Of a stretch of DNA of 64,000 nucleotides, positions 39,480 through 62,840 are shown in pieces (position 1 is the first letter of the stretch; the number at the start of each line of letters is the position of its first letter). The stretch lies in contig JAUICH010000006.1 in assembly GCA_030427505.1 (NCBI GenBank), positions 124,001 to 188,000 on the forward strand. The letters are read 5' to 3'. The stretch is from Verrucomicrobiia bacterium (lineage in GTDB: Bacteria; Verrucomicrobiota; Verrucomicrobiia; Verrucomicrobiales; DEV007). The notes below the pieces were generated by a model. That model ran no database searches. It was given only the letters and a program-made list of their open reading frames with translations, and was not told the origin of the DNA. Both the position numbers and the translations under genes were made by a program.

Positions 39480-41234
39480 ATGGCTGACAAGAACACGACA
39501 ACCGTCTTTAACTTTGGCTCGCAGACCGTCAGTGGCGCGGTGTTTTCCACGTCGGGCGGAACTTTGACCCTCCAGCGGTACCAGTCCACGGAGATCATGG
39601 GCGATCCCACTGCCGAGGGGGCGTATCCGTCTCAACTAAAGGTGGCGCTGACCGAAATCAGCAAGCCGCTCAAGGCAAAGGGAGAAAGAGTTCGCTACGC
39701 GATTTCGAGCCAGTCCGTGTTTGTGCGGTTCGTCAGCCTGCCGCCGCTGGACGAGGAAAAGGTCGACCAGATCGTCGAGTTTGAGGCGCAGCAGAACGTG
39801 CCGTTCCCGATCAATGAGGTGGCGTGGAACTACCAGTTGATCGGCGACGAGGACGACCCGGAAGTGGAAGTCGCCCTAGTGGCCATCAAGCTGGACGAGC
39901 TGAATGACATCAGCGCGACCGTGGGTGGCGTGGGACTGGGAACCAGCGGGGTGGACATTGCCCCGGCGGCCTTGTTCAACGCCTTCCGCTACAACTACGC
40001 GGACGTTACCGGCGTCACCCTGATCATCGATATTGGCGCCCGGACCACCAACCTGATTTACGTGGAAGGCGGCAAGGCCTTCATTCGCGTGATCAAGATT
40101 GGGGGCGCGGACATCACGAAGAACATCGCCAAGGAGTTCAACGTGAACTTTATCGAGGCGGATCAACGGAAAGCCGCGGACGGTTTTGTCGCGTTGGGCG
40201 GGCCTTATGCCGAGCACGAAGACCCGGTCATTGCCGGACTTTCCAAAGTCATCCGGAATTCCCTGACGAGGCTGCATTCCGAGATTGTCCGGACGACGAA
40301 CTTTTTCCGCAGCCAGCAGGGCGGCAGCGCGCCCGAACTGGTGCTGCTGGCGGGCGCTTCCGCCGGCATGCCGTTCATGCGTGAGTTTTTCGCTGAAAAG
40401 CTGAGCCTGCCCATCGATCATTTTAATGCTTTCCGGAACGTCAAGATTGCCGGCAAGGTGAACAAGGAAGAGATCCAGGCCAAGTCTCACACCATGGGCG
40501 AACTGGTGGGGCTGGCGCTGCGCGACGCGGGGCCGTGCCCGATGGAGATCGACCTGGTGCCGGACGACGTTCGCGAAGAGCGCGACGTGAATTCCCGGAA
40601 GCCGGCCCTGGTTGGGGCGGCGGTGATCTTGGGGCTCTTGCTGGTGGCGGTTGGATTCTACTTCCAGCAAGCCGCAAACCTGGCCAAACAAGAGACCAAA
40701 CGGCGGGAAAGCGAATATCAGACCCTGAAGAACTTCAACGACAAGATCAAGGACCAGAAGGAACGGATCGAGGAGATGGAGGCTAAGCAGAAGCCCTACA
40801 CCCAGGCGGTGATTGCTCGCGCCTACTGGCCGGAAATTTTCCGCGATCTCAATAGCCGGATGACGTCCGATCTGATCTGGATCACCCAGTTGGAACCGCT
40901 GGCAAAAGGGGAGGCCATCACCGAACCGGTGGTGCAGCGCAGCGACGATCAGCCAGTGTTCGAGGATCTGGAGCAGAATGAGGAATCCGGGTATGTGGAT
41001 GCCATCCTGCTGAAAGGACTTTGGCGCGACAACGATCAGGTGGGTTCCCAAGTGGTTCACCAGTACCTGGACGCCTTGGAGAAGTCTCCCTACTTCGCCC
41101 TGGAAGGCGTGGACACGAACCAGATCTTGAGAACGCTCGAGGTGGGCGGAGGTGGAGGCCGTTATGCCTGGCAGTTTGAAATGTATCTGCCGCTGCCGGA
41201 TGACGAGAACATGAGAATTCAGTACACCAAGTAA
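39480..41234 (+). CDS. PilM-PilN fusion, Amuc_1101-like
   Basis: This 584-residue protein combines an actin-like PilM domain (about 1-350) with a PilN-like part. The PilM part includes KVDQIVEFEAQQNVPFPINE, LIIDIGARTTNLIYVEGG and LVLLAGASAGMPFM. The second part has a transmembrane segment (375-395), a coiled coil (about 398-440) and a periplasmic alpha/beta domain. In type IV pili PilM and PilN are separate and PilM binds the PilN tail; here they are one chain. The first phosphate loop reads FNFGSQTVSG, with Asn11 where PilM normally has Asp, which may affect ATP use. It corresponds to Amuc_1101 by order and is followed after 38 nt by the Amuc_1100-like gene. Confidence 0.85.
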   Translation: MADKNTTTVFNFGSQTVSGAVFSTSGGTLTLQRYQSTEIMGDPTAEGAYPSQLKVALTEISKPLKAKGERVRYAISSQSVFVRFVSLPPLDEEKVDQIVEFEAQQNVPFPINEVAWNYQLIGDEDDPEVEVALVAIKLDELNDISATVGGVGLGTSGVDIAPAALFNAFRYNYADVTGVTLIIDIGARTTNLIYVEGGKAFIRVIKIGGADITKNIAKEFNVNFIEADQRKAADGFVALGGPYAEHEDPVIAGLSKVIRNSLTRLHSEIVRTTNFFRSQQGGSAPELVLLAGASAGMPFMREFFAEKLSLPIDHFNAFRNVKIAGKVNKEEIQAKSHTMGELVGLALRDAGPCPMEIDLVPDDVREERDVNSRKPALVGAAVILGLLLVAVGFYFQQAANLAKQETKRRESEYQTLKNFNDKIKDQKERIEEMEAKQKPYTQAVIARAYWPEIFRDLNSRMTSDLIWITQLEPLAKGEAITEPVVQRSDDQPVFEDLEQNEESGYVDAILLKGLWRDNDQVGSQVVHQYLDALEKSPYFALEGVDTNQILRTLEVGGGGGRYAWQFEMYLPLPDDENMRIQYTK

Positions 41235-41272
41235 AGGGGAGACAGTCTCCAGACCGCCGTTCTTTTTTTGTA

Positions 41273-42271
41273 ATGAAAGCCAAGCAGTTTTATGCCGTTT
41301 ACGGGGTTATCCTGGCCCTGATCGTGGGGGGAGCCGGGTTCTTCCTGTATCGCGGTTTCTCCGCCTATTCCGCAGCCGTCGAGGAGTTTGACAACCGGGA
41401 TGCCACCATCAAAACCCTGAAGAAGGCGGCTCCCTTCCCGAACGCGGCCAACCTGGACAAGCTCACGGCTCAGGTCGACGACTACCAGCAGCAGATCGAG
41501 GAACTCAACAAGGCGCTGCTGAGGTTTCAGAAACCGCTGAACATGAATGTTAAGGATCGGGAGTTTCAGCAGATCCTGAAAAACAAAATAAGAGAGTTCA
41601 AAGAGTATGCCAAGGCCCGGGGGATGGGGCTGCCCGACACGGAGTCCGATCCTTTCTACATGGCCATGGACCGGTATGAGACGGAACTGCCGGAAAGCGA
41701 AATCGTGCCCTTGTTGGTATATCAGCTGGATGCCGTCGAACGTCTCCTGAAGATGTTGGCGGACTCCCGGGTGGAGCAACTTACCACTTTGAGCCGCGAG
41801 ACCCTGCCGGGAGAAGGGGACAACCCCCCTGCGGAGGAAGGCACCGTGGTGCAGAAGTACCCCATCAGCTTGACCTTTTCCGCCACGCACTCGGGCTTCC
41901 AGAGTTTCATCAATGCCCTGAGCAACGACGACGAGTTTTTCTTTATCCTGCGGATCATCCGGGTGGAGAACGAGAAACAGGAGGGACCGATCAAGGGGGC
42001 AGCCGACGTGGGGGTCTCGAGAATTCTCAACAAGGAAGGCGTCGAGATTCCCCAGACCGAGAAGGACGAACTCTACCAGCTTCCCTATGATGAGATGATG
42101 GCGATCATCGAGGAGCGAGGCTATCGCGTCGAAAGCCAGGATGCCCAGGTCATCATGGGGCAGGAGAAAGTGCACGCCTATTGCATCATCGACTTGGCGC
42201 GGTTCGAGGAATTCATAGATACGGAAGAGGGGGCTGGCGAGGCCGGTGGCCCGGAGAAAAAGAAGAAGTAA
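41273..42271 (+). CDS. PilO-like inner-membrane protein, Amuc_1100-like
   Basis: This 332-residue protein has a short cytoplasmic start, one transmembrane segment (about 7-28, AVYGVILALIVGGAGFFLY), a coiled coil (about 60-90, LDKLTAQVDDYQQQIEELNK) and a periplasmic domain. Within that domain PISLTFSATHSGFQSFINAL resembles the second PilO/GspM-type ferredoxin-like fold. Length, topology and neighbours match Amuc_1100, the well-studied A. muciniphila envelope protein with host immune effects. The likely role is the PilO-like alignment protein between inner membrane and secretin. Primary sequence identity is low; the call rests on order and architecture. Confidence 0.75.
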   Translation: MKAKQFYAVYGVILALIVGGAGFFLYRGFSAYSAAVEEFDNRDATIKTLKKAAPFPNAANLDKLTAQVDDYQQQIEELNKALLRFQKPLNMNVKDREFQQILKNKIREFKEYAKARGMGLPDTESDPFYMAMDRYETELPESEIVPLLVYQLDAVERLLKMLADSRVEQLTTLSRETLPGEGDNPPAEEGTVVQKYPISLTFSATHSGFQSFINALSNDDEFFFILRIIRVENEKQEGPIKGAADVGVSRILNKEGVEIPQTEKDELYQLPYDEMMAIIEERGYRVESQDAQVIMGQEKVHAYCIIDLARFEEFIDTEEGAGEAGGPEKKKK

Positions 42272-42355
42272 TGCAGCAGCGGGCCAATACCGGCCCGAGT
42301 GTTCTCCATCGAGGAAAGATCGCGGAATCAATTTTTAGTCAACCGGACATCGATA

Positions 42356-43348
42356 ATGGACTGGGTTTCAAACAAGTGGGATAAGGTCATTCTTTTGGTC
42401 GTGGCGCTGATCGCCATCGGCTTGTCAGTTAAGTTTGTCTTGGACAGTCTCGCCTACGGCGACCGCTTCCAAACCAGCACCGTGGCGCAGGACGACACCT
42501 TTCCCGAGATGGCCTCGGAACGGGTGCAGCAGTGCACCCTGCTGGTGGCGCAGAACACGGAATGGAAACTTCCGTCCCTGGGCCCCGAGGGGGGAGAGAA
42601 GCAAATCCCGCTCTTCAAGTCGGTGCCGATTGTGACGGTTTCCGGCCAGTTGATCGACATGCTCGATCCCAACGCCCGGCCGCTGCGTCCGCCGGTCACC
42701 AACGCGTGGTTGATGGAATACAACTTGGACTTCCTGAAGAGCAGCGTGCTGGACGACGACAATGATGACGACGGTTTTAGAAACCTCGAAGAGTGGGAGG
42801 CGAAGACGGATCCGACGGACAAGGCCAGCCACCCATCGTTTGCCAACAAGCTGGAACTGGTGTCCCGCCGCCAGCAAAACTATGTGGCGGAATTCGCGGC
42901 GAAGCCGGATGCCGAGCGTTACCAGATTATCCGCTACCCTTCTTCCCTGTTTAACAGCCGGGACACTTTCATCTTGGCGATTGGGGAGATTTCCAGTGAC
43001 GAACAGCTTCGCGTGGACTCATATGTGGAGAAGGAGGAAAAAGACGGCGCGGGCATCACGCGTGACTCTTCAGAGCTGTCCGTGACCTACAAACCGAACA
43101 CCCCGGACGCCGAACAACACGTCCTCAAGAAGGGGAACAAGACCGTCATCCCGACTTATTTCGCCCAGTTCCGGTTTTTGCTTGATAAGGGAGAAGACAT
43201 TTATGTAAAGGAAGGGGCCACGTTTAAACTGAGTCTCGATCCTGAGACCGAGTATAAACTCGTTGACATTGAAGAAGATAAAGCCGTAATCTCGTACCGC
43301 CCGGAGCCGGGAGCGGATGAGGTAACCGTCGAGATAAATAAGAAATAG
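42356..43348 (+). CDS. Membrane-anchored periplasmic protein, Amuc_1099-like, with calcium-type loop
   Basis: This 330-residue protein starts MDWVSNKWDKVILLVVALIA, an N-terminal membrane anchor like that of Amuc_1099, and continues as a periplasmic protein. Residues 133-160 hold an acidic loop (DDDNDDDGFRNLEEWE, then AKTDPTD) that has the form of a thrombospondin type 3/EF-hand-like calcium site. The C-terminal half is beta-rich (FRFLLDKGEDIYVKEGATFK). A PilP-like linker between PilO and the secretin is a reasonable inference from position. I chose the ATG at 42356; the frame opens at 42299 without a plausible membrane anchor at the start. Confidence 0.7.
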   Translation: MDWVSNKWDKVILLVVALIAIGLSVKFVLDSLAYGDRFQTSTVAQDDTFPEMASERVQQCTLLVAQNTEWKLPSLGPEGGEKQIPLFKSVPIVTVSGQLIDMLDPNARPLRPPVTNAWLMEYNLDFLKSSVLDDDNDDDGFRNLEEWEAKTDPTDKASHPSFANKLELVSRRQQNYVAEFAAKPDAERYQIIRYPSSLFNSRDTFILAIGEISSDEQLRVDSYVEKEEKDGAGITRDSSELSVTYKPNTPDAEQHVLKKGNKTVIPTYFAQFRFLLDKGEDIYVKEGATFKLSLDPETEYKLVDIEEDKAVISYRPEPGADEVTVEINKK

Positions 43349-43393
43349 CCGCAGTAATCTGCTCCTCGAAAAAAGAGGGGAATTTTCCAAACA

Positions 43394-43424
43394 GGCCGCT
43401 GAAATGGCGGCCAATTAGTTTTTT
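43394..43424 (+). promoter_or_regulatory. Hairpin plus T-tract between the Amuc_1099-like and secretin genes (attenuator candidate)
   Basis: GGCCGC (43394-43399) pairs with GCGGCC (43407-43412) around a seven-base loop; six bases later comes TTTTTT (43419-43424), 18 nt before the secretin start codon. An A-rich loop hairpin (CCTC/GAGG) lies just upstream. It could act as a partial terminator that lowers secretin expression relative to the inner-membrane genes. Confidence 0.4.
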
Positions 43425-43442
43425 GTCATCCAGCGAAGAAAA

Positions 43443-46001
43443 ATGAGTACCATGTTGCTGACTAGAGGGGCCAAATTGATCGGTGGAAGCCTATTGGTTT
43501 CAATGCTTGCCGCCGCCGGCAATGTTGCGGTTTGGGCGGAAGCCGGAGGAGGGGGAGCTCCCGGCGGCAGTGCCGACGGAGGAGCCCCATCGGTAGCCAG
43601 CCGTTATGTCATCCGCATGCAAGAGCGGGTCAAACAGGCGGACGATGCCGCGAACCGGGCGGCTCAGTTGCTCAGTGACGGGGACTATGAAGGGGCGATC
43701 AAGGAATTTCGCGCCGCTTTGGATTTGCTGCCGGATGCGCCGATGACGGAAGACCGCCGCGAGGCTTACACGAAGCGATTTGCCGACGCCAGTGTCCGCT
43801 TGGCGGAGCAACGCGCCGAACAGGCCCGCTATGACGACGCCATCACCCTGCTGGAAGCGGTGCTGGCCCCGGACGTGGACCCGGACAACGTGGAAGCCAA
43901 GCGTCTGCTCGAAAAGCTTCAGGACCCCGAATACTACTCCCCGGCCGTGACGCCGGAGCACTTGGATCGGGTGCGTCAGGTGGAGCGAGCCCTGGAAGTA
44001 GCTCGTGGCTACTACAACATCGGCGACTTTGACGGGGCTATCGACGAGTACCACAAGGTGCTCAATCTGGACCCCTACAATAAAGCGGCCCGCGGGGCGA
44101 TGGAAGACGTCCGGCACGAGCAGATCAACTACTACGACGTGGCCTACAACGAAACCCGGGCTCACATGATGATGGAGATCGCGCGCAGCTGGGAGATGCC
44201 GGTTCCGCAGTCTCTGGAAATCGAAGCCCCGCCGGAAGGGGTCGTGTCCGAATCTGACTCCGTCCGGATCATTGAAGACAAGCTTCGCAAGATTCAGATT
44301 CCGAGCATTGAGTTTGTGAACACACCGCTTTCGAGCGCGCTGGAGTTCCTCTCCATGAGAGCTTATGAGCTGGACCCGGATCCCGATCCGGCCACCAAGG
44401 GGGTGAACATCATTCTCAACGCTGGCGGTTCCGGCGGTGGCGGGGGCGCGCCCAGTGGTGGTGGCGGTACTTCTTCTTCTTCCTTTGACGATCCGGCGGG
44501 CGCAGCCCAGGCTTCTTCCTCCTTTGGCGGAGCGGGCGTGGAAAACACCCCGATCAATTTGAAAGTGTCTCAGGTGCCGCTGGGTGAAGCGCTTCGCTAC
44601 ACAACCAACCTGGCGAATTTGAAATACAAAGTGGAACCCCACGCCGTGGTGGTGGTGCCTCTGTCAGAGCCCACCAGTGATCTGTTTTCCAAGGTGTTTT
44701 CCGTACCGCCGACTTTCCTGTCTTCCGGTGGTGGCGGTAGCTCCAGCGATGCGGCCCCGGCGGATCCGTTCGCTGACCCGGTCGAATCGACTGGCTCCGG
44801 TATTTCTCAACGGCGTTCGGCCAAGGAGGTGCTTTCCGATGCGGGCGTAACCTTCCCTCCGGGCGCCAGCGCGATCTACAATAAAGGCAACTCTCAGCTG
44901 ATTGCCACCAACACGCAGGCGAACCTGGATCTGATCCAGATCTACGTGGAGTCCATCCGGGGTGAAGCGGAGAAGCAGATCTACATCAGCTCCCGCTTTG
45001 TGGAGATTGCGCAGGAAGACGGGAAGGAGCTGGGCTTCGACTGGCTTTTGGGTCCCTTCGACATTCCTACCTCTGGCGAAAAAGTGTTCGGTAGTGGTGG
45101 CACGCTGGGCAATCAGCGCACGGACCTGAGTCCTTCCGACTTTTCGTTCACGCAGCCGGGTACCACGGTTCCGGTGGGGGGGAATCCCGTGACCTCGGGG
45201 CTTCGTTCGGGTAGCTTGGGTGTTTCCGCGGATTCCATTGACGGCCTGATCGCGGAAGCGGCTGGCGCGGCGCAGTCCGCTTCCAGCTTGGCTCCGGCGA
45301 TCTTTGGCGTGGCGGGTGTGTTTACCGATCCTCAGTTCCAGGTGGTCATCCGGGCGCTGAACCAGCAAAAGGGTACGGACCTGCTGTCCGCCCCGAGCGT
45401 CATGGCCCGTAGCGGTCAGCGCGCCAAGGTGGAGGTGATTCGCGAGTTCATCTATCCGACGGAATACGATCCGCCGGAAATTCCGAACGAAGTGGGTACC
45501 GGTTTTGGTGCGGGCGTTTCCACTTTCCCGGTGACTCCGGCTAACCCGACTGCGTTCGAAACACGGAACACTGGGGTGACCTTGGAAGTGGATCCGGTGA
45601 TCGGCGCGGACGGCTTCACCATCGACTTGAACCTGTCTCCGGAAGTGGTCGAGTTTGAGGGCTTCATCAACTACGGGAGCCCGATTCAGACGGGTGCGAC
45701 CAACAACGTGACAGGCGCACCGACGACGATCGTATTGACCGAGAACCGGATTGAGATGCCGGTCTTCAATACCCGGAAAGTGACCACGCAGGTCACGATC
45801 TGGGACGGCCAGACCGTTGCCATTGGTGGTCTGATCCGGGAAGACATTCAGGACATCGAAGATAAGGTGCCGTTGCTGGGAGACATTCCGGTGGCTGGCC
45901 GCCTGTTCCGGTCCAGCACCGAGCTGCACCTGAAGCGGAACCTGACGGTGTTCGTCAAAGCTGACATTCAGGATCCGTCCGGTCAGAAGATCAATCCGTA
46001 A
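43443..46001 (+). CDS. TPR-containing outer-membrane secretin (PilQ/GspD superfamily), Amuc_1098-like
   Basis: This 852-residue protein should form the multimeric outer-membrane channel of the locus. After a signal sequence (cleavage probably near VWAE) it has TPR-like helices (about 57-230, for example GDYEGAIKEFRAALDLLPD and GDFDGAIDEYHKVLNLDPYN). N-domain repeats with Gly/Ser-rich inserts (about 280-440) follow. The secretin homology domain starts at about 515 (QIYISSRFVEIAQEDGKELG). It contains MARSGQRAKVEVIREFIYPT from residue 654, and the signature VPLLGDIPVAGRLFRS near the C-terminus. The order TPR, N-domains, secretin matches Amuc_1098. It is the last gene of the locus and is followed by a strong terminator. 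Its C-terminal domain is the clear relative of the three mini-secretins further on. Confidence 0.9.
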   Translation: MSTMLLTRGAKLIGGSLLVSMLAAAGNVAVWAEAGGGGAPGGSADGGAPSVASRYVIRMQERVKQADDAANRAAQLLSDGDYEGAIKEFRAALDLLPDAPMTEDRREAYTKRFADASVRLAEQRAEQARYDDAITLLEAVLAPDVDPDNVEAKRLLEKLQDPEYYSPAVTPEHLDRVRQVERALEVARGYYNIGDFDGAIDEYHKVLNLDPYNKAARGAMEDVRHEQINYYDVAYNETRAHMMMEIARSWEMPVPQSLEIEAPPEGVVSESDSVRIIEDKLRKIQIPSIEFVNTPLSSALEFLSMRAYELDPDPDPATKGVNIILNAGGSGGGGGAPSGGGGTSSSSFDDPAGAAQASSSFGGAGVENTPINLKVSQVPLGEALRYTTNLANLKYKVEPHAVVVVPLSEPTSDLFSKVFSVPPTFLSSGGGGSSSDAAPADPFADPVESTGSGISQRRSAKEVLSDAGVTFPPGASAIYNKGNSQLIATNTQANLDLIQIYVESIRGEAEKQIYISSRFVEIAQEDGKELGFDWLLGPFDIPTSGEKVFGSGGTLGNQRTDLSPSDFSFTQPGTTVPVGGNPVTSGLRSGSLGVSADSIDGLIAEAAGAAQSASSLAPAIFGVAGVFTDPQFQVVIRALNQQKGTDLLSAPSVMARSGQRAKVEVIREFIYPTEYDPPEIPNEVGTGFGAGVSTFPVTPANPTAFETRNTGVTLEVDPVIGADGFTIDLNLSPEVVEFEGFINYGSPIQTGATNNVTGAPTTIVLTENRIEMPVFNTRKVTTQVTIWDGQTVAIGGLIREDIQDIEDKVPLLGDIPVAGRLFRSSTELHLKRNLTVFVKADIQDPSGQKINP

Positions 46002-52153: not shown

Positions 52154-55100
52154 CTAGGGCTGGGGCCAGCGGTATTCGAGGCGTTCGACGGTGGGAAGGG
52201 CGTTGGTGAGGAGGTAGGTTCTGGTTTGCTGAGTCTGGGACTTGGTGCCCCAGTGAGTGTAGTAGGTGACCCGAAGGGTGAGGGGGGGCAGGCTTTTAAG
52301 GGAATCCACCTTTACGCCGGCGAATTCGATCTGGGCTTCCGAGCGGCAGAGACTGAACTGGTAGGCGCCGGGGATGCCGTGACGGATCTGGTATTCCTGC
52401 ACGCGTGGGCTTAGGTCGAGACGCCCACCATTGGGGCTGATGCCCTGGCTGAAGACGAGGGTGTTGTCCTTGTAGCCGGGTTCCAGGACTTTCACGTCCA
52501 CGTCTCCGCCGCAGGCGGTGATGACGACGCGCAGGTCCGAGGACATGGCATTGATGGGGAACTGGCGCAGGTTTCCGCCGGGACGGCCGCCGTTTCCGAA
52601 GAAATCGGTCAGGGCTATGGTGGCGAGGGCGCCGGGATCGCCGCTGTCGATTTCGCGTTCCACGGCTTTGGCGAAGGCGTTGGCCTGGCTTTTCAGGGCG
52701 GCCAGATCGTACTGAATGAGGGCGCGCGTGCTGGTGTCCGCCACGAAACGGTCCAACTCTTCAAGCAGACTGACGGCGCGGCTGGTGGCGCCCACTTCGG
52801 CGAGCCAGAAGGCGAAGGCACGGGTGGCTTCCACGGGGTTGGGTTCGACTTCGAGGAAGTTGGAAAGGATGCGTTCGGCCAGGGCGGAATGGCCTTTGGC
52901 CATGAACAGGCGGGCCATTTCCACCCAGGTGGCGGGAGCAGGAGTCTGCTCGTGAAACGTTTCGCGCAGGAGTTTATCGTAGGTGGCGGCGGGGTCCGCG
53001 CTGTTCTGGAGTTCTGTCAGGATGGCCGGGTCCGCCTGGGAGCTGGAGGCGGTTTCGATGGAGGGTCCCGCCTGGAGGTGAAAACTGGGCTGGTTCCTGG
53101 AAGGGACCTTGGGTTTGAAAGATTTGGCGGGCGGTCGTGGGGGAACGTAGTCGCCCGGCTTTTCAAAGACGCGAGAACCGCCGGACGCGGGAGCCGCGAA
53201 GGGATCGGCAAAGTAGTCGAGATCGTAGCGCGGTGTGGTTTCGACCACGATCATGTCTCCCCAGCGGAGGGGGACGGGTTGGGGCTTCAGGCCGAAGTTT
53301 TCCAGGTCGTAGCCAGTTCGGGCGCCGTCCCGGTAAAGGAAGATGCGCGACCACGAGCCCCAGGGATCGCGGGGACCTCCGGCGCGTTCCACGGCTTCTT
53401 TCAAGGTAAAGGGCGCCGGGGCGGTGATGATGCCGCGTTGAGGTACAAAGCCGCGAACGGAAACGTGGAGCGGCTTTCCGGGTGGCGGGCCGGCCGGACG
53501 GGCGCGGATTTCGGTCAGGCGCTGGAGACGTTGATCGATTTCCTTTTTCCACTGGTCGAAAGCGGCCTGACTTTTGAGTTGGGACTTGGCATTGATGGTA
53601 GCCTGGGCTTCGGGAAGCCAGGCGTCGAAGGGGGCGAGGCGTTCCTGGTTGAGCTGTTCCGGGGGGAAGGCCTGCCGGGAGGCTTTCAGCCAGATGCCGA
53701 CGGTGGTGATCTCCTGCTCCAGCCGCCAATCCACCCAGGGAAAGGAGGTGCGGTACCAGATCTCTTTGGCTTGCCAGGCCGTGGCCGCCCTGCTGAAGGC
53801 CCGTGAGTGATTGATGTTGAGGAGTAATTCGTTGTAGCGGGTCAGCAGTTCCGGCTCGGGCGGGGGGATGCGGTAGCGGAGGTGGTCTTCGAAACGTTCC
53901 AGGACGATGAGGGAGGTGTGGTCGCTGACAAGGCGTTCGGCGATGGCGTAGTCCTTGATGGCGGCTTCGTCGCCGAGAGTTTCCAGGGCGGCGAGGCGTT
54001 GTTGAGCCCAGGCGCGGCGGGCAAAGCCCCAGCCGGTCTTGTCTTCAGTGGCTTCGGAGCGGTTGAGGGTGAGTTCTTCTCCGTCGTCGAAGCGAATCTT
54101 TACCGCCTGGTTCCAGTTACGTTCGATGTGTCCTGACACCAGTACCAAGTGATCTCGCCGGGTGAGTTCGCAATCCGAGCGGGGCAGGTTTCGCACCTGA
54201 GCACCGTGGGGGTATTGGGTGAGTTCTTTCCAGGCATCTTCTTCCAGCACATTGATGTGGGCCTCGGCGAAACCGGTCAGGCTGGAGCTGATGGGACCGG
54301 TGGTGGAGGTGAGGATGAAGAGTTCCCGGTCCTGGAGGGGATTTGGTGGCAGGGTCCAGGCGGGGGAACTGAGTAGGCCATCAGTGACAAGAAGGGTGAC
54401 GCCCGCGAGCGGGCCCAGGGCGGAGAAGTCCGCCGCGCCGTCGTAGGGGATGTCCCGGAGAAAGGCGTCGAGCTCCGCGCTTTTTCCGTCCACCAGGGAA
54501 AACTTGTGGGCCGGCTCGAGCGCGGTGCGGAGGAGTTGGACGGATACTTCGGCATTGCCCAGCCATTGCCAGTAGAGGGCCAGGGCCTCCAGTTCTTTGG
54601 CATGGTCGCGATACTTTCCGGAGAGAGAGGCGTCCCAGATAAGGTGGATCTTGCCGGGCTTTTTCCGTGGGCTTACTTTCGTGGTGTCCGGCAGCGTTCT
54701 TTGGACAACAAAGTGGGTCACGCTGTCAGGGGCTTTTTCGAGACGGACCAGGGTTTCGCCCGGCGCGGGCAGGGCGGGCCGCAGGGAGAAGTCTCCCGCC
54801 AGGTTGATGACGGAGCCTTTCCAGGTTTGCTCCAGCGTACCACCGGTCTTACGGGGTGGCGACGCGGTTAAGCCGGGGGTCGTGATGGCGGCGCTCTTGA
54901 CTCCGCGAACCTGGCAGGTGAAGGACTGCAGGAGCGTGGGGTGGTCCAGGGGAAGGAAGTATTCGGCGTTTCCCAAGTATTGGAGGTAGCCGATGCGGAC
55001 GCGCTTCGGCGCGCGGGGTTCCAGGGGGAAGATGCGGGTGCGGTAAACATTTCCTTCCTCGCGCTCGACCAATCCGGGATCCACCCGGCGGCGCTTGATG

Positions 55101-55483
55101 GCTTCGTATGCGTTCCGGGCCTGCTCCTTGTCCACCGAGATGGCGGGGCGCAGGTGGCCATTGACCTCCAGGGCGTAGGTGGAAACCGTGGCGCCTTCCG
55201 GGAGGGTCATGACGAACTCGCCCTCCGTCCGGCGCTCGGCGTGGTTGAAAAACTCCAGTTCGAAGATGGTTTCGACCAGGGCGCCTTCGCCTTCCACGCT
55301 GATGGAGACCGAGGTCAGTTCCAGGGGCTGGCCGTCGCTCTGGGAGATGAGGACGGGGAAGGCGCCCGACGGGGGAGTGGAGGCTGGCGGGTCCGTTTGC
55401 GCTTCCGCCCGGAGCGGGCGCAGTACTCCGGCCCCGGCCAGGAGAATGGCGCAGAGAATGGCGTGCTTCGCCCAGGCGTTCAT
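52154..55483 (-). CDS. Large secreted VIT / vWA / SLBB / TPR protein
   Basis: This 1109-residue exported protein has a signal peptide (cleavage near AEAQ). An inter-alpha-trypsin VIT domain follows (about 35-170: VSISVEGEGALVETIFELEF, EGEFVMTLPEGATVSTYAL). Next is a vWA-like domain with an intact MIDAS pattern, D284-x-S-x-S288 in HLIWDASLSGK and D368 in VTDGLLSS. A helical middle comes next, then an SLBB domain (about 670-750: VSVRGFVPQRGIITAPAPF, RIFLYRDGARTGYDLENFG) of the kind found in polysaccharide-export Wza-type proteins. TPR-like helices (about 810-930) are followed by a C-terminal beta domain resembling DUF2135 (DLRVVITACGGDVDVKVLEP). VIT/vWA/DUF2135 proteins are known in bacteria; an added SLBB domain is unusual to me. 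It follows the mini-secretin gene by 4 nt and is surely co-transcribed with it. Confidence 0.85.
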   Translation of the reverse strand: MNAWAKHAILCAILLAGAGVLRPLRAEAQTDPPASTPPSGAFPVLISQSDGQPLELTSVSISVEGEGALVETIFELEFFNHAERRTEGEFVMTLPEGATVSTYALEVNGHLRPAISVDKEQARNAYEAIKRRRVDPGLVEREEGNVYRTRIFPLEPRAPKRVRIGYLQYLGNAEYFLPLDHPTLLQSFTCQVRGVKSAAITTPGLTASPPRKTGGTLEQTWKGSVINLAGDFSLRPALPAPGETLVRLEKAPDSVTHFVVQRTLPDTTKVSPRKKPGKIHLIWDASLSGKYRDHAKELEALALYWQWLGNAEVSVQLLRTALEPAHKFSLVDGKSAELDAFLRDIPYDGAADFSALGPLAGVTLLVTDGLLSSPAWTLPPNPLQDRELFILTSTTGPISSSLTGFAEAHINVLEEDAWKELTQYPHGAQVRNLPRSDCELTRRDHLVLVSGHIERNWNQAVKIRFDDGEELTLNRSEATEDKTGWGFARRAWAQQRLAALETLGDEAAIKDYAIAERLVSDHTSLIVLERFEDHLRYRIPPPEPELLTRYNELLLNINHSRAFSRAATAWQAKEIWYRTSFPWVDWRLEQEITTVGIWLKASRQAFPPEQLNQERLAPFDAWLPEAQATINAKSQLKSQAAFDQWKKEIDQRLQRLTEIRARPAGPPPGKPLHVSVRGFVPQRGIITAPAPFTLKEAVERAGGPRDPWGSWSRIFLYRDGARTGYDLENFGLKPQPVPLRWGDMIVVETTPRYDLDYFADPFAAPASGGSRVFEKPGDYVPPRPPAKSFKPKVPSRNQPSFHLQAGPSIETASSSQADPAILTELQNSADPAATYDKLLRETFHEQTPAPATWVEMARLFMAKGHSALAERILSNFLEVEPNPVEATRAFAFWLAEVGATSRAVSLLEELDRFVADTSTRALIQYDLAALKSQANAFAKAVEREIDSGDPGALATIALTDFFGNGGRPGGNLRQFPINAMSSDLRVVITACGGDVDVKVLEPGYKDNTLVFSQGISPNGGRLDLSPRVQEYQIRHGIPGAYQFSLCRSEAQIEFAGVKVDSLKSLPPLTLRVTYYTHWGTKSQTQQTRTYLLTNALPTVERLEYRWPQP

Positions 55484-55487
55484 GCCC

Positions 55488-56327
55488 TTATTCCTTCTTC
55501 TTTGCGGAGGTTTTCTTGGGCTCTTCCAGGGGCAGGCCAGTGACGACGATATCCGCCTTCACCATGACCATGACCTTCCGTCCGTAGTCGGGCATGCCGG
55601 ATTCCAGGTTGAGAGGGGAGCAGGCGCCGAAGAGGAAGTATTCACCGGCGAGGAGTGTCACTTGGGTGGTGACTTTCATGGTGTAGAAGGTGGGCATCTG
55701 GATGTCCAACTCGCCTTCCTTGGATTTGTAGGTGCCCCACATGCTGTGATCGGCGAGGTAAACGATCTCGGGGCTCATGTTGAGATCGATGGTGATTCCG
55801 TCCGCGCCGAGGACGGGATCGACTTCAAAGGTGGAGCCGACGTGCCGGGTTTCGAAGGCGGCGGGGATGGGGAGGCGGTTGCCGTATTCCTTCGGTTTGG
55901 CGGGCGGCCCGTCTTTCGGTGGGGGTGAGGTGACGAGGAACGGAGGATCGTATTCCGTGGGATAGATGTATTCGTGGATGGACTCCACCTTGGCGCGCTG
56001 GCCGCTGCGCGCGACGACCATCATGGTGTCGAGGAGCTTGGCCTCGCCCTTTTTCATGAGGGCGGAGAGATCCTCGCGCAGGGGGCCATCGTTGGAAGGT
56101 TTATAGGTGACGGGCCTGGTGGAATCGGTTTCCGCGAGGAGGGCGGTGTACTGTTCGTGGGAGACTTCGATCCATTCGACCTGGATGCGGAGCTGTTTTT
56201 CCATCTCCTCCAGGGGCACCTCGCGACCGAGGGGATTGAAGGCGTCCGCGTCCTGTCCCCGGGCGGAAGCCGTCCAGACAAGAGAGAGGAGGAATAAGAA
56301 GAGGCAAAGGGGGTTTACCAATTTCAT
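55488..56327 (-). CDS. Mini-secretin 1: secreted stand-alone secretin homology domain
   Basis: This 279-residue protein has a signal peptide (MKLVNPLCLFLFLLSLVWTA, cleavage near ARGQ) and one domain that aligns with the C-terminal half of the secretin at 43443-46001. Shared segments are QVEWIEVSHEQ (first strand), VVARSGQRAKVESIHEYIYP and TEYDPP, AAFETRHVGSTFEVDP, GITIDLNMSPEIVY, FYTMKVTTQVTLLAGEYF and MVMVKADIV. The N0-N3 domains are absent, and the segment with the VPLLGDIPVxGRLF signature is replaced by a shorter one. The C-terminus is lysine-rich. It precedes the VIT/vWA/SLBB gene by 4 nt. A full-size gated pore seems unlikely; a small outer-membrane-associated or periplasmic ring, a secretin modulator or an adaptor is possible. 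Confidence 0.8.
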   Translation of the reverse strand: MKLVNPLCLFLFLLSLVWTASARGQDADAFNPLGREVPLEEMEKQLRIQVEWIEVSHEQYTALLAETDSTRPVTYKPSNDGPLREDLSALMKKGEAKLLDTMMVVARSGQRAKVESIHEYIYPTEYDPPFLVTSPPPKDGPPAKPKEYGNRLPIPAAFETRHVGSTFEVDPVLGADGITIDLNMSPEIVYLADHSMWGTYKSKEGELDIQMPTFYTMKVTTQVTLLAGEYFLFGACSPLNLESGMPDYGRKVMVMVKADIVVTGLPLEEPKKTSAKKKE

Positions 56328-61100: not shown

Positions 61101-61961
61101 ATGAAAACCCTAAGAGTGCATTGGTTTCGGGCTTGTTCAGCGAAAAGAGAATGGGTTGCGGAGAAGTGGCCGGTCATTTTCGCGGGAGTCTGGTTGGCCA
61201 TGGCGGCTATCTGTCCCGGAAGCGTATTTGGTCAGACGGAAAAGCCTGACACCAAGCCAAAGGAGGAAAAGAAGGCGGCGGCAAAGGATCCCTTCGCCGC
61301 GCCGAAGCAGGCCGAAGCCCAGAAGCGTGAAGATCGGGACATCGTCATCATGGTGGAGTTCCTCGAACTGGACTTGAAGAAGGCCCGAATGCTGATCCGC
61401 GAGCATGTGAGCAATGGGAACCAGGATCAGAATACGCTCTACGAAGAAGTGGAGAAACTCATTGCGGCAGGTCAGGCGACGCCCTTAGAGACGATGTGGA
61501 TGCGAACCCGTAGCGGGCAGCGCGCCCGGGTCGATTCCGTGGAGGAGATCATTTATGCCAAGGAGTTCGATCCGCCAAGACTGCCGAACAAAGTGGAGCT
61601 CGATAGTGTGGGGGAGATTGAGCGGCTACAGGGCAGGCCCGCGTTACCGGCTGCGTTCGAGACCCGAGAAGCAGGGTCCATACTTGAGGTAGATCCCGTC
61701 GCCGCGGGGGATGGCAGCGGGTGGATCGACCTGAATCTGTCCCCGGAGTTGGTTCATTTCAGGGGCATGCGTCCGGCGATCGCTGATGGATATAGGTCCG
61801 GTGAAGAAGAGACTACCGTGCTGCCGGATTTCCATACCATGAAATTGTGGACTCAAACAACGCTCCGGTCCGGGAACTACCATTTGCTGGGATTGTTGAA
61901 ACCGGACGGAAAACGCGAACACCGGGTCATGGTGTTCGTTCGGGCCGATCTGGCGGACTGA
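61101..61961 (+). CDS. Mini-secretin 2: secreted stand-alone secretin homology domain
   Basis: This 286-residue protein has a long signal peptide (hydrophobic part PVIFAGVWLAMAAICPG, cleavage near VFGQ), a charged linker, and a secretin homology domain. The domain starts IVIMVEFLELDLKKARML and continues with the shared core RTRSGQRARVDSVEEIIYAK, EFDPPRLP, AAFETREAGSILEVDP, WIDLNLSPELVHFRG, FHTMKLWTQTTLRSGNYH and RVMVFVRADL. The secretin signature loop and N-domains are missing. It is 48 nt upstream of mini-secretin 3 in the same direction; the two look like a diverged tandem duplication. Confidence 0.78.
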   Translation: MKTLRVHWFRACSAKREWVAEKWPVIFAGVWLAMAAICPGSVFGQTEKPDTKPKEEKKAAAKDPFAAPKQAEAQKREDRDIVIMVEFLELDLKKARMLIREHVSNGNQDQNTLYEEVEKLIAAGQATPLETMWMRTRSGQRARVDSVEEIIYAKEFDPPRLPNKVELDSVGEIERLQGRPALPAAFETREAGSILEVDPVAAGDGSGWIDLNLSPELVHFRGMRPAIADGYRSGEEETTVLPDFHTMKLWTQTTLRSGNYHLLGLLKPDGKREHRVMVFVRADLAD

Positions 61962-62009
61962 GAGAACCTGACTTCCCAAGACGCGGAATCTAGAGACTGA
62001 AAACTAACC

Positions 62010-62840
62010 ATGAAAACTTATAAATACTTCATCATAACGGCTATTCTGGGAACTTGTTTGCAGGCGCCAGTAATGGCTCAGGAAAGTTCCGCCGAGGGCG
62101 GAAAACGAAAAGACCCCTTCGTCGCCAAGGCGAACGCGGCGGCGGACCAGGGCACGGCGGGAGGAGCCGAACCTGAAAAGAGTCAGCCGAAGGAAAAACT
62201 GGAGAACGTGTCCGTACTCGCAACGGTGGACTGGATAGAAGCGGACTACGCGAAGATCCGGAAGTTGCTTCACGCGAACATGGGCAAGGCGGACGCGACT
62301 GAGATTCTGACGCAAATGGAGCGTTGGGTGAACACCGGCGAGGCAACGGTCCTGGAAAGTCTGTCTCTTGTGGCTCGAAGCGGACAGCGGGCCAAGGCGG
62401 ATTCCTCGGAAGGGTATATCTACGCCACGGAAGCGGATTCGCCGTACTATCCGGATGAGATCTCCCTCCGTGACAGTCCGTTTGACGGAAGGTTTCTGGG
62501 AACTCCGAGCAATCCCACCGCTTTTCAAACTCGCAATGTGGGGTCGATAGTCGAAATGGATCCAATCCTGTCCGCCGGATACACCGAAGCCTATTTGAAC
62601 ATTTCCGCGGAGATCGTCCGGTTGCTGCGGACTCAACCAGCAATGGACGTTAAGGTCGATGAAGCCTACGCCAAGATCATGGGAGGCTATGCAATGCCCA
62701 TTTTCTACCGGATGCAGGTGACGACTTCCGTCCATCCGGAGATGGGAAAACCCGCTCTGGTCAGTGTGCAGACGCCCTATGGGGCGTCAGACCGCCGGGT
62801 ACTGGTGTTTGTCACTGTCGAGGTGCCCGGTCTCAAGTAG
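62010..62840 (+). CDS. Mini-secretin 3: secreted stand-alone secretin homology domain
   Basis: This 276-residue protein has a signal peptide (MKTYKYFIITAILGTCLQA, cleavage near VMAQ), a charged linker starting ESSAEGGKRKDPFVAKANAA, and a secretin-like domain: LATVDWIEADYAKIRKLL, LVARSGQRAKADSSEGYIYA, TAFQTRNVGSIVEMDPILS, YLNISAEIVRLL, FYRMQVTTSVHPEMGKP and RRVLVFVTVEV. It is the most diverged of the three copies in this window (DSP for DPP, no DLN in the later strand). It follows mini-secretin 2 and precedes the histidine kinase by 71 nt. Confidence 0.77.
   Translation: MKTYKYFIITAILGTCLQAPVMAQESSAEGGKRKDPFVAKANAAADQGTAGGAEPEKSQPKEKLENVSVLATVDWIEADYAKIRKLLHANMGKADATEILTQMERWVNTGEATVLESLSLVARSGQRAKADSSEGYIYATEADSPYYPDEISLRDSPFDGRFLGTPSNPTAFQTRNVGSIVEMDPILSAGYTEAYLNISAEIVRLLRTQPAMDVKVDEAYAKIMGGYAMPIFYRMQVTTSVHPEMGKPALVSVQTPYGASDRRVLVFVTVEVPGLK

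Follow-up and report, generated by a model that had tools for sequence, protein, structure and literature searches.

Secretins are known as outer-membrane gates, and two of their parts, the amphipathic helical loop (AHL) and the beta-lip, normally touch the membrane. The AHL is present in every structurally characterised secretin and is thought to start membrane contact (PMC6532946); it is essential for insertion and is kept by mitochondrial GspD, which itself lacks N-domains (PMC8134430). Similar to mitochondrial GspD, the mini-secretins (MS) described here have a secretin C-domain without N0-N3, and in both cases a second, divergent paralogue exists, but the mitochondrial protein keeps its AHL and makes pores (PMC8134430), whereas the MS have no AHL. 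The nearest described family is the Amuc_1098 type IV pilus secretin (NF042912), to whose C-terminal secretin domain the MS align, although its TPR, N-domains, AHL and most of its beta-lip are missing from the MS, which form a separate lineage. For the partner protein, the closest counterparts are bacterial VIT/vWA/TPR/DUF2135 proteins (Bacteroidota, Planctomycetota, Spirochaetota), which share its domain order and DxSxS site, but have neither an SLBB domain, nor a DPF linker (with one exception), nor an MS neighbor.

The gene pair lies on the reverse strand of a 64,000-nucleotide stretch (hereafter, the window; contig C50:124001-188000) of a 6.4 Mb verrucomicrobial genome. The first gene, MS1 (55488..56327, - strand), encodes 279 amino acids comprising a Sec signal peptide and a secretin core (NF042912, PF00263, AF2, and fold matches), and the second (52154..55483, - strand) encodes a 1109-residue exported VIT/vWA/helical/SLBB/TPR/DUF2135-like protein (Pfam, a 16-sequence alignment, and AF2), here termed the VIT protein. 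The MS1 stop codon (55488-55490) and the ATG of the VIT gene (55481-55483) are separated by 4 nt, and an AAGGA-like ribosome site for the VIT gene is located inside the end of the MS1 gene. The coordinates, strand, gap, and protein length given in an earlier sequence-only reading of this locus are all exact.

MS1 matches NF042912 (3.6e-24, 84.9 bits) in its C-terminal part only (582-749 of 805), and accordingly fails the curated score of 750 bits, which applies over the full length; with the profile match starting at 582, N-terminal periplasmic domains were not found in MS1. The match to PF00263 (2.1e-4, 21.3 bits) is likewise below its cut-off of 27.5 bits. All 29 of the aligned MS relatives match NF042912, also C-terminally. 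The window additionally harbors an Amuc_1098-1101-type pilus cluster (39480-46001; NCBIfam), which marks the DNA as verrucomicrobial, including a full-length Amuc_1098-type secretin (43443..46001, + strand; NF042912 974 bits) with both the AHL and a DPFA motif, to which MS1 is 49% identical. Elsewhere in the genome (G000 contig C29, L226:7693-10284), another gene encodes a full-length Amuc_1098-like secretin, which likewise carries a DPFA motif. Two further mini-secretins, also C-terminal pieces of Amuc_1098 by NCBIfam, are encoded in the window: MS2 (61101..61961, + strand; NF042912 3.2e-20; 3.1e-31 to MS1; DPFA motif) and MS3 (62010..62840, + strand; NF042912 3.8e-10; 1.1e-19 to MS1; DPFV motif). 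These two genes (61101-62840, + strand) directly precede those for a histidine kinase and an OmpR-type response regulator (L066 2912-5193), and all four may constitute one operon.

Structure models were built from alignments of fetched relatives. In the MS1 model (pLDDT 86.9), a short disordered stretch at the start of the mature protein is followed by the secretin core (residues 43-267; 55527..56201, - strand), in which the long barrel strands of secretins are predicted. The top 40 Foldseek matches are all secretins (E to 1.3e-6, probability 0.99-1.00), and VIA-align places residues 43..267 on GspD, pIV, and PilQ, with Z scores for secretins of 9.0-13.8, in comparison with 4.7 for the next unrelated structure. 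The term mini-secretin, used in the sequence-only reading, is thus right as to fold, but the protein is a divergent and truncated secretin. In the phylogenetic tree, the MS form a lineage apart from the full secretins (branch support 99) with a long branch between them, which rules out that they are recent copies of the local Amuc_1098. The MS are a secretin core that shares ancestry with the Amuc_1098 pilus secretin but diverged from it long ago.

Mini-secretins from other genomes vary in size and arrangement. Subclasses A and B, which form separate clades, occur in tandem before the VIT gene at six loci (L072, L113, L115, L116, L118, and L119), a hint of hetero-oligomers; subclass A usually carries a DPLG-type motif, while subclass B is shorter and lacks it. 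Tandem arrays at L102-L105 encode MS that are longer (340-390 aa) and bear an additional VPPxFL region at the N-terminus, MS with lipoprotein-like signals are found in tandem arrays (L103:9900-10610 and L104:5551-6333), and two tandem MS cores seem to be contained in some open frames of 470-634 aa. A family of ∼360-470 aa proteins, weakly serpin-like in L083 (E 0.034), adjoins MS genes in L083, L084, and L101, and its members in L084 and L101 have DPFG motifs.

The DPF[A/G] motif is common to the pilus secretins, the MS, and the linker of the VIT/SLBB protein, whereas few other proteins of the sampled genome carry it. MS1 itself has NPLG (56226..56237, - strand), a variant of DPF[AG]/DPLG; such variants (DPLG, DPFA, NPLG) occur at the N-terminus of 33 of 60 MS, where shuffling predicts 1.0. 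In full secretins, DPF[AG] is found in a Gly-rich loop, mostly 185-202 residues before the core (17/24 sequences). The VIT protein carries DPFA in a disordered linker after the SLBB domain (53195..53206, - strand), where the D and F columns are invariant in the 16-sequence alignment, and DPF is present in this linker in nearly all SLBB-containing rows, as opposed to one SLBB-less row. Among 322 proteins of the same genome (a 379-kb sample, in which carriers belonging to one family are related and not independent), the motif occurs in 5 of 6 secretin, MS, and VIT proteins and in 7 of 316 others (Fisher 1.7e-7). The sharing of this motif is a new finding, and its occurrence in three distinct sequence contexts is notable. 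An exported DUF6794 protein (L231:7958-8812) with DPFG in a low-complexity tail is a possible further carrier.

This shared motif, the closeness of the MS to Amuc_1098, and the presence of several MS per genome would all fit MS that act as regulators or decoys, either capping the Amuc_1098 secretin or co-assembling with it, while the VIT protein assists in this as chaperone or adaptor. We regard this as a serious but unlikely explanation, given the long branch that separates the MS from full secretins and the many genomes that have Amuc_1098 but no MS beside a VIT gene.

The VIT protein model (pLDDT 86.0, pTM 0.77) begins with a VIT domain (residues 56-166; 54986..55318, - strand; PF08487 8.1e-20) and a vWA domain (residues about 271-428; 54200..54673, - strand). 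The latter has no Pfam match in this protein and was assigned from its predicted fold, which aligns to the vWA domain of ANTXR2 (Z 15.1, rmsd 2.8, 148 aligned residues), such that both domains proposed in the sequence-only reading are borne out. Together, they resemble inter-alpha-trypsin inhibitor heavy chain 1 (Z 19.0, rmsd 11.6, 449 aligned), although this is a eukaryotic, secreted protein without SLBB or TPR. The metal site (MIDAS), previously described as intact, is so only in part: D284, S286, and S288 of the DxSxS motif are invariant in 91/91 homologues, and D368 is present, but column counts show that the Thr found at position 351 in 62 of 65 SLBB-less and 12 of 26 SLBB-containing rows is replaced by Ala351. 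Among SLBB-containing loci, those that keep the Thr mainly have at least two MS genes before the VIT gene, and those without it mainly a single one (Fisher 0.001), a pattern that follows phylogeny.

The SLBB domain (residues 674-747; 53243..53464, - strand) matches SLBB_2 just above the cut-off (PF22461, 2.5e-6, 27.9 bits vs. 27) and SLBB just under it (PF10531, 1.8e-5). A profile search of PDB sequences with this region gave weak matches to ComEA (0.004), PslD (0.04), and Wza (0.07), and Foldseek superimposes 83 columns of it on Wza at 2.2 A; the assignment is thereby upheld by both profile and fold, and misassignment is ruled out. Wza, PslD, and ComEA, which share the SLBB fold, are polysaccharide-export or DNA-uptake proteins, whereas the SLBB of this locus occurs singly and as part of a VIT protein, in which Poly_export (PF02563) has no match up to E 1. 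The TPR-like helices (residues about 817-963; 52595..53035, - strand) and the C-terminal, DUF2135-like beta domain (residues about 980-1104; 52172..52546, - strand) are less firm: their profile matches in this protein are sub-cut-off (TPR E 0.45; PF09906 E 0.022), but the helices are predicted by AF2, and PF09906 is matched at 1.3e-13 in the relative at L087. A function in anti-phage defence is unsupported, the only PADLOC match being to part of PDC-M71B in the TPR region (18.2 bits).

The sequence-only reading regarded both proteins as outer-membrane conduit elements, and the MS in particular depart from this. At the site of the AHL (VPxLGxIP) of full secretins, MS1 has a shortened loop (55578..55628, - strand; from alignments), and the alignment of MS with the window's own Amuc_1098 shows one clean deletion, VPLLGDIPVAGRLFRSSTELHL. 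The AHL stretch has a median of 16 residues in MS, compared to 38 in full secretins (74 MS, 24 full secretins), and the VPxLGxIP motif (of VPxLGxIPxxGxLF) occurs in 0/74 MS; a strict regular expression finds it in 14 of the 24 full secretins, the remainder being partly variants (e.g., IPLLGDLP, TPIIGDIP). Furthermore, the beta-lip hairpin is reduced to 23 residues, 26% of them charged, as compared with 36 residues and 15% in full secretins. Given the missing AHL and the short, charged beta-lip, an outer-membrane pore should not be assumed from the outset, and because the AHL is universal among characterised secretins, tied to insertion, and retained in mitochondrial GspD (PMC6532946; PMC8134430), the MS should not be classed as outer-membrane secretin channels despite their secretin core. 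A conduit in which the MS form the outer-membrane pore and the SLBB of the VIT protein a periplasmic duct, as in polysaccharide export, would be consistent with the confirmed SLBB fold, its resemblance to Wza and PslD, and the predicted barrel strands. It would also fit the genome G219 (L087:8187-12013), where a VIT gene without SLBB has a 4-nt overlap with a gene for a 222-aa Poly_export+SLBB protein, so that SLBB and VIT are linked there in trans, without MS. The loss of the membrane-contacting elements nevertheless weakens this conduit, and we consider it distinctly unlikely.

The pair recurs well beyond this genome. Every SLBB-containing VIT locus with an upstream flank (25/25 distinct Verrucomicrobiota loci from several families; a 26th, L109, begins inside the gene) is preceded on the same strand by one to four MS genes, mostly within ∼25 nt or with a 4-nt overlap, while no MS was found in the flanks of 65 SLBB-less VIT relatives from several phyla (ten of them verrucomicrobial). 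Some of these verrucomicrobial genomes (for example, G021, G219, and G139) encode MS elsewhere. Relatives with the VIT-vWA-helical-TPR-DUF2135 arrangement extend to Bacteroidota, Planctomycetota, Spirochaetota, Acidobacteriota, Pseudomonadota, and Myxococcota. The tight coupling that had been proposed from one locus thus holds, and both chance adjacency (25/25 vs. 0/65) and a peculiarity of one genome are ruled out. In a tree computed without the SLBB columns, the 26 SLBB-containing VIT rows, all of them verrucomicrobial, group in a single clade (SH-aLRT 100); SLBB was therefore gained once, and its link to MS is one retained evolutionary event, not many. Distances among the MS increase with those among their VIT partners (Mantel r 0.72, p 0.0002, 18 pairs, with the shared species tree left in), as expected of a cassette inherited together, and since no recurrent third gene was found beside the pair among the loci compared, this cassette is self-contained. 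No MS-VIT fusion was found; an apparent 724-aa fusion at L080 is an over-extended reading frame. Together, the two genes make up a cassette that is conserved in Verrucomicrobiales. The dependence is one-sided: MS from VIT-operon lineages (L100, L098, and L099) persist in three genomes (G204, G035, and G075) that lack a VIT match, so that MS can act without a VIT partner. Mere co-expression, in which both genes answer the same envelope signal and act separately, would fit the other contexts in which MS genes occur (e.g., MS2-MS3 before the two-component genes, and arrays without VIT), but is improbable because no SLBB-VIT gene was seen without MS upstream, even as MS number and flanking genes vary.

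Our best, though tentative, explanation, to which we give somewhat less than an even chance, is that a secretin-derived periplasmic ring or cap docks to a VIT/SLBB scaffold and is possibly coupled to the Amuc_1098 pilus machine. The MS, as homo-oligomers or A/B hetero-oligomers, would assemble into a beta ring or cap resembling that of secretins, which would remain periplasmic and not insert unaided into the outer membrane. In Wza-type exporters, SLBB domains form stacked rings, and by analogy the SLBB of the VIT protein may dock on the MS ring, leaving the VIT/vWA/TPR parts to hold further partners. The DPF[A/G] motif could tether pilus secretin, MS, and VIT protein to one common partner, in which case the module is probably accessory to, or a spin-off of, the pilus/secretion machine. 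This docked-ring explanation draws on the 25/25 vs. 0/65 linkage, the single SLBB-containing clade, the separate MS lineage and the distance correlation, along with the secretin fold, the absent AHL, the short, charged beta-lip, and the motif enrichment. Against it stand the MS without VIT in three genomes, the single SLBB gain, the shortness of the motif, and the fact that MS1 has only the NPLG variant. A more specific version is doubtful, if quite possible: that the core of a pilus secretin was turned into a non-inserting periplasmic ring, serving as a platform for a VIT/vWA/SLBB scaffold. Such rings would represent a class of secretin relatives without their former membrane role, brought to machinery by the DPF[A/G] linear motif that they have in common with the parent pilus secretin.

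No matching family is named for the gene pair in Pfam, NCBIfam, or PADLOC, and a limited literature collection yielded no publication on bacterial VIT/vWA proteins with a secretin or on mini-secretins; within these sources, the earlier description of the complex as undescribed is supported. The parts are of known kinds, while their combination as a pair and the AHL-less secretin core are new. These observations point to the reuse of a secretin ring in a new envelope role, and the proposed module makes predictions regarding co-purification, ring size, and the partner of the DPF motif. If this holds true, the secretin fold would be reusable for another envelope task, with a large family of AHL-less cores tied to a scaffold that gained SLBB. 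Furthermore, the module may offer a way into the little-understood pilus machine of Verrucomicrobiota, including the much-studied Amuc_1098-1102 locus of Akkermansia.
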